DNA of 36,946 nt from an uncultured Acidimicrobiales bacterium. GTDB taxonomy: Bacteria > Actinomycetota > Acidimicrobiia > Acidimicrobiales > UBA10347. This document shows, piece after piece, positions 16,990-29,811 of the stretch; the first letter of the stretch is position 1; each line of letters opens with the position of its first letter. The notes beneath the pieces are model-generated. The model had not been told where the DNA came from, did no database searches, and saw only the letters and a program-made list of their open reading frames with translations. The DNA is taken from assembly GCA_938015575.1 (NCBI GenBank), contig CALLPT010000150.1:1-36946 (forward strand), in the 5' to 3' direction. The position numbers were made by a program, and so were the translations under genes.

Positions 16990-18093
16990 ATGAGCGAGCT
17001 GGCTGGCGAGCAGAACCCGTTCATTCGCTATCGCGAACGCCTCGATTCGTACCAGGGCGCGGTCGCCGGTGGGTTGAGTGACGAGCGGTTCGTTGATCTC
17101 GTCGGCGAGCTCGACGACGCCGTGAAGTCCGTCGACGGTCGCGGCTTCCGCGTGACGCCGGTCATCGACGGCGCCGCAGTCGTGTCCGATGCGGCCCCGC
17201 ACCTGCGCGTGTCGGTCAAGGTAGACGCAGGCAATGTGTCCGGGTCACACAAGTCGCGCCACCTGTTCGGCGCGGCGCTCCACCTGTTGGTCGAGCGCGA
17301 ACTTTCCGGCAACGAGCTACCGGATCGTTTGGCGATCGCAAGTTGTGGCAATGCGGCGATGGGCGCAGCGGTGGTCGCACGCGCTCTGGACCGCACGCTC
17401 GACGTATTCGTGCCGACCTGGGCCGAGGCCAATGTCGTGGAAGCACTCGACTCGTTCGGCGCCACCGTCAATCGCTGCGAACGCCGTGAGGGCGAGGTCG
17501 GTGACCCGTGCTACCTGCGGTTCAAGGAAGCGGTGGCCGCTGGAGCGCACTCGTTCAGCGTCCAGGGCACAGACACGCCAACGACGTTCGATGGCGGTCG
17601 AACGCTCGGCTGGGAGATCGAGGAACAAGTCGCCACGCCGGACTCGCTCTACGTCCAGGTCGGTGGGGGAGCGCTCGCCACGTCGGTGGGAACGGCGCTT
17701 CCGACCGCCCGGCTCCACCCAGTCCAGGCCGAAGGCTGCGCACCGCTGGCGCGAGCGTGGGACCTTCTCGCTCCCGATTTCGACTTCGCTGCCGCGGCCG
17801 CAGACCCTGAGAAGTACATGACAGCCTGGGAGAACCCCCAGAGCTTCGCGACGGGGATTCTCGACGATGTCACCTATGACTGGTTGCCCCTGCTTCGCCA
17901 GACCGTGGCAAGCGGCGGATGGCCCATCGTCGCCCCCGAGGCCATGGTGCGAGACGCGTGGGATCTGGCGCGGAGCCGGACCGATGTGCCGGTCTGCTCG
18001 ACCGGTACGTCCGGCCTCGCCGGGCTTCTTGCCGAACCGCCCGCAACCGAGGAACATGTGGTCGTGATCTTCACCGGCGTGGACCGCAACTGA
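16990..18093 (+). CDS. Threonine-synthase-like fold-type II PLP enzyme
   Basis: The 367-residue product has the probable PLP lysine K88 in VSVKVDAGNVSGSHKSRHLF, the substrate loop ASCGNAAMGAA, the phosphate-binding loop VQVGGGALATSVG and a C-terminal CSTGTSGLAGLL. It differs from true threonine synthase at the lysine motif (SHKSRH rather than SFKDRG), so the reaction need not be threonine formation. The ATG lies 4 bases after the upstream stop, and its own TGA shares a base with the next ATG (TGATG), so the operon is tightly coupled. It is a distant paralogue of the preceding gene; a heteromeric or sequential partnership is possible. Confidence 0.8.
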   Translation: MSELAGEQNPFIRYRERLDSYQGAVAGGLSDERFVDLVGELDDAVKSVDGRGFRVTPVIDGAAVVSDAAPHLRVSVKVDAGNVSGSHKSRHLFGAALHLLVERELSGNELPDRLAIASCGNAAMGAAVVARALDRTLDVFVPTWAEANVVEALDSFGATVNRCERREGEVGDPCYLRFKEAVAAGAHSFSVQGTDTPTTFDGGRTLGWEIEEQVATPDSLYVQVGGGALATSVGTALPTARLHPVQAEGCAPLARAWDLLAPDFDFAAAAADPEKYMTAWENPQSFATGILDDVTYDWLPLLRQTVASGGWPIVAPEAMVRDAWDLARSRTDVPVCSTGTSGLAGLLAEPPATEEHVVVIFTGVDRN

Positions 18094-19607
18094 TGTCAGA
18101 CGTCGCAAGCAGGGCATTCGAACCCCATTGGGTGCAGCGCCCGGGCACAGCCGTCGGGCGCGTGCATCGGCCTACGACACAGCGGTCCGCGCTCGAGCTA
18201 TTTGCCGAAGACCCGACGCGTCGCTTGGTGGCGGGCGGAACCGACCTGGTCGTCGAGCTCGACCGTGACTCGGGACCGTCGGTGGAGCTGATCGACGTCA
18301 GCCGCATCGACCGGGCCCGTATCGTCGAATCCGGTCACCTCGACGGGCGAGCCCATCAGGTGCTCGGCCACGGCGTGACCCACAATCAGGTCGTCACGAC
18401 ACCGAGCCTGGTGGAGCGCGCGCTGCCGTTGGCCCAAGCCTGTCTCGAAATCGGTTCACCGCAGCTGCGCAACCGCGCCACGATCGCTGGCAACTTGGCA
18501 ACGGCGAGCCCGGCCAACGACTCGATTAGTGCGTTGTTGGCCTTGGACGCCCAGCTCCAACTGGCCCGCCTTGTCGATGGCGAGGTCGCCGAACGGATGG
18601 TGGGCATCGAAGACTTCTTCCTGGGCGTGCGCTCGACCGTGCTCGAGCCAGGCGAGATGATCGCCAGCATTTGGGTGCCCGAACCGCATGAACACCAGAC
18701 CGGCATCTGGGTCAAGGCCGGGTTGCGCAAGGCACAAGCGATCTCGGTCGTGCACTGCGGCATCAGCTTGGAGTTTGCATCGTCGTCGCGGGACTCATCG
18801 ATCGTTTCTGCCCGCATCGCGCTGGGGAGTGTGGCCCCAACGGTCGTCTTGTCGTCCGCCGCAGCCGATGCCTTGATCGGGCGTTCGCTCAACGACGACA
18901 CCATCGCCGATGCGGCGCGGGCCGCGGCTGCCAGCGTGCGACCAATCGATGACGGTCGGGCAACTGCGGACTACCGCTCCGCCACGGTCGAGACCGTCGT
19001 CCGCCGCGCGCTGGCATCGTTGGCTAGCGAAGACGAGCGCGGCCGCTGGCCGGCGCGGATACCCACGCTGGGCACCAACGCCCCCGCGACCTCGACCTCG
19101 ACCACGACCTCGACCTCGACCTCGACCTCGGCTTCGGTCATCGATGACCAGTCAGAAATACGCGTCGCGATCAATGGCAACGACATTGCCGCCGGCGGTG
19201 CCGCTTCGACGACCTTGCTCGACTGGCTGCGCGAACATGCCGGCACGGGGACCAAAGAAGGCTGTGCCGAGGGCGAATGCGGCGCCTGCACGGTGATGCT
19301 CGATGGGGCAGCAACCATGTCGTGCCTGACGCCCGCAGCCCAGGCCGACGGCGCTCGGGTCACGACGGTCGAAGGGCTCGCGGGCGACGCGCCACTCAGC
19401 GTCATGCAGCAATCGTTCGTCGATAACTTCGCGGTCCAATGCGGCTACTGCATCCCTGGCTTCGTCGTCTCGGCGACCGCACTGCGAGCTGAGTTCGAGG
19501 CACCGACCCGCGACGAGATCGAACTCGGGCTGTCGGGCAATCTCTGCCGCTGCACCGGCTACTACGCCATCCTCGAAGCCGTTCGTGCAACCGGAGGCAC
19601 CCAATGA
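18093..19607 (+). CDS. Xanthine-dehydrogenase-family FAD subunit fused to 2Fe-2S subunit
   Basis: The 504-residue product carries electrons from the molybdenum site to an acceptor. Residues about 1-310 are the FAD domain, with LVAGGTDLVVEL and NRATIAGNLATASPANDS. Residues about 325-345 are a Thr/Ser linker. Residues about 350-504 are the two-cluster iron-sulfur domain with all eight cysteines visible: C391, C396, C399, C411, then C450, C453, C485, C487. The order FAD then FeS is the reverse of the usual XdhA layout. Stop and next start overlap (ATGA), so it is coupled to the large subunit. Confidence 0.9.
   Translation: MSDVASRAFEPHWVQRPGTAVGRVHRPTTQRSALELFAEDPTRRLVAGGTDLVVELDRDSGPSVELIDVSRIDRARIVESGHLDGRAHQVLGHGVTHNQVVTTPSLVERALPLAQACLEIGSPQLRNRATIAGNLATASPANDSISALLALDAQLQLARLVDGEVAERMVGIEDFFLGVRSTVLEPGEMIASIWVPEPHEHQTGIWVKAGLRKAQAISVVHCGISLEFASSSRDSSIVSARIALGSVAPTVVLSSAAADALIGRSLNDDTIADAARAAAASVRPIDDGRATADYRSATVETVVRRALASLASEDERGRWPARIPTLGTNAPATSTSTTTSTSTSTSASVIDDQSEIRVAINGNDIAAGGAASTTLLDWLREHAGTGTKEGCAEGECGACTVMLDGAATMSCLTPAAQADGARVTTVEGLAGDAPLSVMQQSFVDNFAVQCGYCIPGFVVSATALRAEFEAPTRDEIELGLSGNLCRCTGYYAILEAVRATGGTQ
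19088..19129 (+). repeat. GACCTC hexamer repeat encoding the inter-domain linker
   Basis: Seven consecutive hexamers (one is GACCAC) encode alternating Thr-Ser between the FAD and 2Fe-2S domains. The tract is in frame and prone to slippage in multiples of two residues. Confidence 0.93.
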
Positions 19608-21847
19608 GTGTCGGATCGTCGCCTATCCGTTTCGATGCTGCGGCCAAGACCACCGGCGCTGCCGGCTACCCGGGTGATCGCCGTCCCGCCGATGCCTTGA
19701 TGGCAAAGATCGTGTTCACCGGCCAGCCGCACGCTCGGCTACGTTCGCTCGACCTGGGGGCCGCCGAGTCGGTCGACGGTGTCGTGGCGATCGTGACCGC
19801 CGCCGATGTGCCCCGCAACGAGTACGGCCTGACCAAGTTCGACCAGCCGGTTCTCATCGGACCAACCGATGATCCCAACGTCGCCGTCGACTGCACCATC
19901 AGCCGATGGGAGGCCGATCAGCTGTGCGTGATCGTGGCCGAAACGATCGAGGCCGCCGACCAGGCCATGGCGCTTCTCCAGGTCGAATGGGAACCGCTTC
20001 CGGTGGTGCCGGATCTCGACACGGCCCGCACTGACGAGCATCTGGTGCACCCCGAAGACGGCACCAACGCGTATCACCATCTCCGGATCCGGCGAGGCGA
20101 GACGGCGGCTGCCTTTGCCGATGCGGCCGTCGTGGTCGAACACACCTATGTCGTGCCCCATCAAGAGCACGCATATCTCCAGCCCGAAGCGGCGACGGCC
20201 TGGATCGATGAACTCGGCCGCACCACCGTCGAAGTCGCCGGCCAGTGGACACACGAGGATCAGGAACAGATCGCGCACGCGCTCGATGTTCCAGCCGACC
20301 AGGTGCGCGTGATCTACCCGGCGATCGGCGGCGCATTCGGTGGCCGCGAGGACATGTCCGTCCAGATCGCCCTCGCGTTGGCCGCTCGCAAGGTCGCCGC
20401 ACAGGGCATCGAACGACCCGTGTTCACCCAGTGGTCCCGCGAAGAGTCCATCATCGGCCACCACAAGCGCCACCGAGGCGAAATCCACGCCCGAACGGCC
20501 GCCGACGCCGACGGGCGGCTGCTTGCCGCCGAGGCCACGGTGTGGCTTGACGCCGGCGCGTACAACTACACCTCGAACAAGGTCTTGGGCAACGCCCACC
20601 TCAGCGTCGTCGGCCCGTACGAAGTCGCCAACGTGAGCGTGGACTCCTACGCCGTCTACACGACCACCGTGCCGGGTGGCGCGTTCCGTGGCTTCGGCGG
20701 CCCCCAGGGGGCCTTTGTCGCCGAGATGCAGATGAATCGCCTGGCAGCCGCGCTCGGCCTCGACCCGGTCGAGATCCGTCGACGCAATCTGGTGAGCGAA
20801 GGCAGCGTCGGCGTTACCGATGTGGTTCTGCCCGAGGGAGTCTCAGCACCGCAGGTCGTCGAAGCGTGCGCGGAGGCCGCTGCCTACGCGGAGCCCCTCG
20901 GCGACGGCGCCCCGTTCTCGCCGTTTGCATCGCTACCGCCATCGCCGGGAGCCGTGCGCCGAGGCCGAGGTTTTGCTGCCGGCATGAAGAACGTTGGCTT
21001 CTCGTTCGGCTTCCCCGAGCGCTGCGAGGCCGAGATTCACCTGCGAGGCGAGCCCGGTGACACCGATCCCAGCTCAGCTGACCTGTTCCACGCCGGCGCC
21101 GAGGTCGGACAAGGAGCGCATCAGGCTTTCCTCCAGATGGCTGCCGAAGCCGTCGGGCTTGAGGTCGATGCGGTGCGTGGCCATTTCAGCGACACCGCGT
21201 TTACCGGCGATTCGGGGAGCGCTTCGGCCAGCCGGCTGACGTTCATGGCCGGGAACTCGATCGTCGAGGCTGCCGCAGCCGCGGCCAAGGCGTGGGCCGA
21301 CGGCGATCGCCCGGCAATCGGTCATGTCCGCTACACGCCCCCGGCGACCGAGACGCTCGACCCCGAGACCGGTGCCGGACAGCCAAACTTCTGTTACGGC
21401 TACATGGCGCAGGCGGTCGAAGTGACCGTCGACATCGAAACCGGCCACCTCCGGGTCGACCGTGTGGTGTCCTGCCACGACGTCGGCCGAGCCATCAACC
21501 CCGAACTGCTCCGAGGCCAGATCGAGGGCGCGGTGGTGCAGGCCCACGGTTACACGCTGAGCGAGAACCTGCAGGTTGTCGACGGTGAGATCCGGAACCC
21601 ACGTTTTTCGTCGTACTTGATCCCTGGCATCGGTGATGTGCCCACGACGGTGGACAGCGTGGTGCTCGAGCTGGCAGATCCGTTGGGCCCGTTCGGCGCC
21701 CGCGGCGTGGCCGAGATGCCCTACATCACCTATGCGCCCGCGGTCGTCGCCGCAGTACACGATGCGACCGGCGTGTGGTTCGACGAGTTCCCGCTCACCC
21801 CGAGCCGGGTGCTCGCCGGTCTTCGCTCCGCAGGCGTCACCCGGTAG
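19604..21847 (+). CDS. Xanthine-dehydrogenase-family molybdopterin subunit
   Basis: The 747-residue catalytic subunit of a molybdenum hydroxylase. Visible cofactor motifs are GGAFGGRED (about residue 242), PGGAFRGFGGPQ (about 360), GAEVGQGAHQ and GARGVAEMP, whose Glu (about 703) is the expected catalytic base. The active-site loop is the XDH type and not the AYxCSFR of form I CO dehydrogenase. Together with the fused upstream subunit it forms a complete two-polypeptide enzyme. The substrate is likely an N-heterocycle or aldehyde, not determinable here. No Mo-cofactor insertion chaperone (XdhC) is in the window. The end overlaps the convergent hotdog gene by 11 bases. Confidence 0.92.
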   Translation: MSVGSSPIRFDAAAKTTGAAGYPGDRRPADALMAKIVFTGQPHARLRSLDLGAAESVDGVVAIVTAADVPRNEYGLTKFDQPVLIGPTDDPNVAVDCTISRWEADQLCVIVAETIEAADQAMALLQVEWEPLPVVPDLDTARTDEHLVHPEDGTNAYHHLRIRRGETAAAFADAAVVVEHTYVVPHQEHAYLQPEAATAWIDELGRTTVEVAGQWTHEDQEQIAHALDVPADQVRVIYPAIGGAFGGREDMSVQIALALAARKVAAQGIERPVFTQWSREESIIGHHKRHRGEIHARTAADADGRLLAAEATVWLDAGAYNYTSNKVLGNAHLSVVGPYEVANVSVDSYAVYTTTVPGGAFRGFGGPQGAFVAEMQMNRLAAALGLDPVEIRRRNLVSEGSVGVTDVVLPEGVSAPQVVEACAEAAAYAEPLGDGAPFSPFASLPPSPGAVRRGRGFAAGMKNVGFSFGFPERCEAEIHLRGEPGDTDPSSADLFHAGAEVGQGAHQAFLQMAAEAVGLEVDAVRGHFSDTAFTGDSGSASASRLTFMAGNSIVEAAAAAAKAWADGDRPAIGHVRYTPPATETLDPETGAGQPNFCYGYMAQAVEVTVDIETGHLRVDRVVSCHDVGRAINPELLRGQIEGAVVQAHGYTLSENLQVVDGEIRNPRFSSYLIPGIGDVPTTVDSVVLELADPLGPFGARGVAEMPYITYAPAVVAAVHDATGVWFDEFPLTPSRVLAGLRSAGVTR

Positions 21848-28770: not shown

Positions 28771-29811
28771 TCAGCGCAGGTCGATGCCGGGCGCGCCAGC
28801 AGCGACGGAGCCGATCTTTCGAGCCGCATGATCCGATTGGGTCAACTCGGCCAGGACGGCCTCGGTGTGCGCCGGGTCAACCCCGAAGACCAGCCCGCCA
28901 GAGGTCTGCGCGTCGGCGACGATCCATTGAGCGACGTCGCCGTGGGAGCCGGGATCGAGCAGCTCACGATTGCTGTCGAGATTGCGTAGCGTGCCGCCGG
29001 GCACGATGCCGGCCTCGGCCAGCGCAACGGTGCCTTCGATCAGCGGGAGCGCTTCGAAGTCGATGGTGGCTCGAACCGCCGATTCGACGGTCATGCGGCC
29101 CAGATGGCCCAGCAGCCCAAACCCGGTGACGTCGGTGCAACCGGTCGCCCCGGCCGCCCGGGCGACTCGCGCCCCGACATCGTTGAGTCGCTGCATCGAG
29201 GCGAGCGCGCCCGCCGCGGCATCGGTCGGCGCCACATCGGCTTTGATCGCGGTCGTGATGATGCCGATGCCGAGCGGCTTGGTCAAAATCAAGTCCTGGC
29301 CGGCGACCAGACCTGCGTTGGTCATGACCTCGTCGGGGTGGACCATGCCGGTGACCGCCATGCCGTACTTGGGTTCGGGGTCGTCGATCGTGTGGCCGCC
29401 CACGACAACGAATCCGCCCGCGGCCGCGATGTCGCTTCCGCCAAGCAGTACTTCGCCGAGCAGATCGATGGGCAGTTCGTCCTTGTTCCAGCCAACCAGG
29501 TTGAGGGCGAACAGCGGGTGCCCACCCATCGCGTAGACATCGCTCACCGCGTTGGCGGCCGCAACGCGACCCCAGACGCGGGCGTCATCGACGACCGGGG
29601 TGATGAAGTCGGCCGTCGAAACGAGGGCGCGCTCGTCGTCGAGACGCCACACGGCCGCATCGTCACCGGTAGTGGCGCCGACGATCAATTCGGCAGCATC
29701 GGGTGTTGGCAAACGGCGCAGGACCTGCGCCAGCTCACGAGGAGCAATCTTGCAGCCTCAACCGGCGCCGTGACTGAACTGCGTCAGACGGAAGGCTTGC
29801 TCATCACCCAT
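28771..29811 (-). CDS. selD: Selenophosphate synthetase SelD with in-frame UGA (selenocysteine) at residue 18
   Basis: It makes selenophosphate from selenide and ATP, the selenium donor for selenocysteine and selenouridine. Reading from the ATG at 29811 gives MGDEQAFRLTQFSHGAG-U-GCKIAPRELAQV, where U is a TGA at 29758-29760. This is exactly the catalytic Cys/Sec position before the conserved GCK. Beyond it the frame stays open for 328 residues with classic SelD motifs: TGDDAAVW, TADFITPVV, AANAVSDVYAMGG, GGHTIDDPEPKYG, TKPLGIG and DVTGFGLLGH. Ordinary gene calling would start after the TGA (TTG at 29712) and lose the catalytic segment. The product is 346 residues, the family's normal length. 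The gene is 50 bases after the lipoprotein gene. Confidence 0.9.
29715..29731 (-). promoter_or_regulatory. Candidate bacterial SECIS hairpin of selD
   Basis: In the mRNA, 26 bases after the UGA, lies GGCGCAGGUCCUGCGCC, a perfect stem (GGCGCAG/CUGCGCC) with a GUC loop; opening one pair gives a GGUCC loop. The GCAGGUC core resembles the apical part of the E. coli fdhF SECIS. Bacterial SECIS elements sit inside the coding region just 3' of the UGA, where SelB binds. Confidence 0.65.

Follow-up and report, generated by a model that had tools for sequence, protein, structure and literature searches.

Evidence that an uncultured Acidimicrobiales bacterium encodes a selenocysteine-containing selenophosphate synthetase

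The selenocysteine (Sec) form of selenophosphate synthetase (Sec-SelD; TIGR00476 / PRK00943) is described as ranking second in size among prokaryotic selenoprotein families, and conversions of Sec to Cys within SelD have been published. A Cys-type SelD is represented by PDB entry 3u0o. As for the signal that recodes UGA, the bSECIS model, as summarized in PMC13188914, gives bacterial SECIS elements a stem of 4–16 bp located 16–37 nt from the UGA, a loop of 3–9 nt with a G at loop position 1 or 2, and an energy of ≤ −7.5 kcal/mol.

Here we describe a selD gene in the window (the whole 36,946-nucleotide stretch of DNA that was analyzed), which belongs to a metagenome-assembled Acidimicrobiales genome of 4.2 Mb in 393 contigs (~80% complete, 2.25% estimated contamination) whose close relatives with names are Ilumatobacter and other Acidimicrobiia bins. 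The encoded protein resembles Sec-SelD in its whole-length match, in the SHGAG[U/C]GCK motif, and in the presumptive Sec at the catalytic position; it does not differ from that family, and only the lineage is newly sampled. It aligns with 3u0o over residues 4–324, in register through the active site, where 3u0o has Cys at the position of codon 18 and the window's SelD would have Sec. Compared with the bSECIS model, the window adds a short hairpin that lies 3′ of the UGA and 5′ of the apical stem (Table 1).

Table 1. Features of the selD locus, in window coordinates
Feature	Positions	Strand	Basis or remark
selD, 346 codons, UGA read as Sec (predicted) at codon 18, terminal stop TGA	28771..29811	-	translation, family match
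In-frame TGA, predicted Sec codon 18, SelD catalytic position	29758..29760	-	translation, 3u0o alignment, homologue column
SECIS-like apical hairpin GGCGCA-GGUCC-UGCGCC, 6 bp, GU in loop	29715..29731	-	comparative
Shorter second hairpin, between UGA and SECIS stem	29734..29748	-	conserved in Sec-SelD, not Cys-SelD

The selD reading frame and its catalytic UGA

Translation of the minus strand from the ATG at 29811 to 28774 reads MGDEQAFRLTQFSHGAG-U-GCKIAPRELAQV..., with the TGA as codon 18 inside SHGAG-U-GCK and 328 residues downstream of it until the terminal stop, itself a TGA (28771–28773). The protein scored 369 bits against NCBIfam model TIGR00476 (curated cut-off 125), covering model positions 1–309 of 311, and contains the Pfam domains AIRS and AIRS_C. 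A preliminary description, made from the letters of the window, had placed a TGA at codon 18 from this ATG, at the site of the catalytic Cys or Sec and with SelD sequence on both sides in one frame; translation, the family match and 3u0o all bear this out. It had also anticipated that ordinary gene calling would truncate the protein to a non-catalytic form, and an ORF call without recoding indeed returned only 28771–29712 (313 aa, TTG start at 29712), in which the active site is lost.

Taken at face value, the product given by this mechanical caller would mean that the UGA is a true stop, ending a 17-codon leader and leaving a SelD without its catalytic residue. We consider this very improbable. 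In 12 relatives compared with the window, the ten codons 5′ of the TGA differ by 3–5 synonymous and 0–1 non-synonymous changes; the sequence 5′ of ATG 29811 is saturated with differences, spread equally over the three codon positions. Judged from these substitutions, the ten codons are under in-frame purifying selection as the SelD N-terminus, and the stretch is therefore translated in the selD frame, for which ATG 29811 fits as the start. Moreover, every Cys homologue reads through the codon-18 position, and the genome carries the Sec machinery described below.

To place the codon among its homologues, we compared 61 SelD genes taken from related genomes. At the Sec column 39 of them, including that of the window, have TGA, the other 22 have TGC or TGT, and there is no third kind; an in-frame UGA at the catalytic Cys position is thus kept among orthologues in 39 genes, and the alignment of homologues suggested in the preliminary description yields Sec or Cys at codon 18. 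Since the sequence is a metagenome assembly, and TGC or TGT is one base away from TGA, the TGA might in principle reflect faulty sequencing or assembly, or a Cys codon that has recently mutated to nonsense; a sequencing error was named at the outset as something that would undo the reading. However, other genomes of Actinomycetota supply 38 more SelD genes with TGA in the same column, so that the codon is not there by chance, and it is accompanied by a covarying hairpin that is mostly absent from Cys forms. An error or recent mutation is thus hardly credible.

Two further loci of the window were noted. An APH family phosphotransferase gene (PF01636; 27886–28767, minus strand) starts 3 bases past the selD stop; it falls far under the cut-offs of named resistance enzymes and is therefore probably an ordinary kinase. 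About 7 kb from selD, two adjacent plus-strand genes (17919–21847) encode a xanthine-dehydrogenase-type molybdenum hydroxylase, as an FAD/2Fe-2S subunit and a molybdopterin subunit. In some bacteria, such hydroxylases can contain a selenium cofactor that depends on SelD.

Hairpins downstream of the UGA

The loop of the apical hairpin begins 32 nt 3′ of the UGA, and the hairpin has an energy of −11.3 to −13 kcal/mol. Its GGUCC loop, 6-bp stem, distance and energy all lie within the bacterial SECIS limits given in PMC13188914. Taken by itself, the window sequence is unexceptional: a 6-bp hairpin is common enough for its codons (synonymous null 0.09–0.13), and a 49-nt fold gave z = −1.09, which has no significance. 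The evidence for the hairpin is therefore comparative. An Rfam scan of the window returned no match. Across 19 relatives, 98.2% of the cells of the stem are paired, and the column pair 33–43 occurs as GC, CG and UA, which is a compensatory pattern. At least five of the six stem pairs are present in 38 of 39 Sec-SelD genes versus 3 of 10 Cys-SelD genes sharing the GAGC motif (Fisher p = 1e-5, a value that treats related sequences as independent), and the GU of the loop is invariant among Sec-SelD. Against a synonymous-codon null, stem pairing reached Z 13.5 in Sec forms and Z 1.4 in Cys forms, where Z ignores shared descent. Together, these comparisons argue that compensatory changes have preserved the SECIS-like hairpin among Sec-SelD genes and that most Cys-SelD genes have lost it.

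The Sec and Cys forms are also ordered on the SelD tree. With the Sec column masked, the label Sec or Cys changes 4 times on the tree of the 61 sequences, versus 18.2 times for shuffled labels. Several Cys-SelD groups nest inside Sec-SelD, on a tree with moderate support and some long branches that are unsafe, and this agrees with the published Sec-to-Cys conversions. Three Cys-SelD genes retain most of the SECIS-like pairs (L081, 6 of 6; L069, 5 of 6; L078, 5 of 6), and their hairpins are likely remnants of such a conversion, by analogy with reports of SECIS remnants in other families (PMC1794560).

What is less usual about the locus is its second conserved hairpin, which is confined to Sec forms. 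It occupies columns 13–27 after the UGA (5 bp, ~15 nt); in the window's copy four of the five pairs form and the outermost is broken. Sec forms have on average 4.46 of 5 pairs against 3.51 under the synonymous-codon null (Z 8.2), and Cys forms 3.00 of 5 against 2.87 (Z 0.7), both Z values ignoring shared descent. RNAalifold, given 39 Sec sequences and no structure, recovered both helices with pair probabilities of about 0.84 and 0.97; neither was found when it was run on 10 Cys sequences. A limited literature search found no published description of this second hairpin.

We suggest that the second hairpin may compact the long 32-nt spacer. The GU of the loop lies at +37/38 in selD versus +23/24 in the formate dehydrogenase alpha gene (fdhA) described below, and the difference is about the length of the extra hairpin. 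By folding up the spacer, the 5-bp hairpin would bring the SelB-binding GU loop in space to about where the single-hairpin SECIS of fdhA puts it. It is a tentative proposal that selD genes in this part of Actinomycetota are recoded through a two-hairpin SECIS of this kind, and we give it somewhat less than even chances.

Selenocysteine machinery and further UGA-containing genes

The genome encodes the components expected of a Sec-decoding organism. selA (contig C68, 2685–3983; TIGR00474, 385 bits vs cut-off 268) is followed directly 3′ by selB (C68, 3980–5710; TIGR00475, 286 bits vs 242), and one tRNA-Sec with anticodon tca (UCA) scores above cut-off (C88, 10538–10629; 65 bits vs 47). Weaker matches to the tRNA-Sec model on C115, C269 and other contigs (30–47 bits) lie below cut-off and were excluded as selC. 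There are no tRNA genes within the window, and in the ~80% complete bin we found neither a second selD nor a match to the ybbB profile TIGR03167, which would mark the selenouridine trait. The distribution of selD, selAB, selC and fdhA over four contigs of a metagenome bin counts against the reading of the gene as Sec-SelD, although two genomes of the same genus (G001 and G004) each hold selD-UGA, selB, selC and UGA-fdhA together.

Among 41 related genomes, 13 have a UGA-containing SelD gene. In all 13 the tRNA-Sec score exceeds its cut-off; the SelB score does so in 12 and falls just under the cut-off in the thirteenth (230.6 vs 242.25). Near-complete genomes without a SelD match have no SelB above cut-off either, and selB and selC also occur in several Cys-SelD genomes.

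Further selenoproteins were sought in the SelD, molybdopterin-oxidoreductase and UGSC families, and three more UGA candidates emerged from the genome, one formate dehydrogenase alpha and two UGSC-family proteins. Contig C164 ends in the formate dehydrogenase alpha fragment, which has TGA in SCNRTUHAPSV. Close matches occur in 12 genomes; all 12 keep this TGA, and in each a hairpin of at least 5 bp comes after it, formed around CGGUCUG (GGUCU loop). PDB formate dehydrogenases align at the TGA, the best being the HDCR subunit FdhF, with Cys in the alignment. UGSC selenoproteins are known in marine metagenomes (PMC2398784); the two matches to the UGSC (seleno)protein family score 108.5 and 51.5 bits, below the cut-off of 125, and in both genes the TGA is the U of UGSC (AYGHUGSCT on C116, GMGCUGSCT on C206). 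The C206 gene has a 6-bp hairpin with GU in the loop downstream of its UGA, and the C116 gene only a weak one.

The C206 gene (L102; 1402–3144, plus strand) joins its UGA-containing UGSC domain, in frame, to a long C-terminal region of no named family, and possibly encodes a fusion selenoprotein of ~581 residues. Downstream of the UGSC-family gene on C116 (L101; 1288–2055, plus strand), a frame resembles, by eye, the C-terminal region of L102, so that the two loci look like split and fused versions of one pair.

These results support the earlier proposals that the organism decodes UGA as Sec and has further hidden selenoproteins: the recommended genome search found selA, selB and selC together with UGA-containing fdhA and UGSC-family genes, and the opposite outcome, absence of selB and selC alongside a second intact Cys-type selD, was not what we encountered. 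The remark that Sec decoding is patchy in Actinomycetota needs qualifying; among these relatives within the phylum such decoding is no rarity, with SelB above cut-off in 26 of the 41 genomes. Reading of the UGA as another amino acid such as Trp, by near-cognate readthrough or reassignment, is exceedingly unlikely, for we found nothing specific in its favor, the terminal stop of selD is itself UGA, the recoded codons fall at known Sec sites of SelD, formate dehydrogenase and UGSC proteins, and a tRNA-Sec with UCA is present.

Proposed mechanism and meaning

Judged from the observed frame and its conservation, the compensatory changes in the hairpin, the Sec machinery and the further UGA-containing genes, selD almost certainly encodes a Sec-containing selenophosphate synthetase. 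Following established bacterial Sec biology, a ribosome arriving at the UGA of the selD mRNA would be met by SelB, bound to the apical hairpin with GU in its loop and bringing Sec-tRNA-Sec (UCA). Residue 18, which lies in the protein's mobile N-terminal active-site loop, would then be Sec and would act in place of the catalytic Cys. Selenophosphate, the product of SelD, would supply SelA for the making of Sec-tRNA-Sec. A formate dehydrogenase and, probably, two UGSC-family proteins would draw on this Sec-tRNA-Sec, as would SelD itself, which would thus depend on its own product.

The finding of a Sec-SelD is well supported yet ordinary in kind, since the family is already well known and common. 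A limited literature search found no publications on selenoproteins in Acidimicrobi*. The use of selenocysteine by this Acidimicrobiales lineage is very probable. Gene calling without recoding will mis-annotate the selD, fdhA and UGSC genes of the lineage. Novelty may lie in the conserved recoding signal with two hairpins, a signal that would offer a test case for the tolerance of SelB toward a 32-nt spacer.
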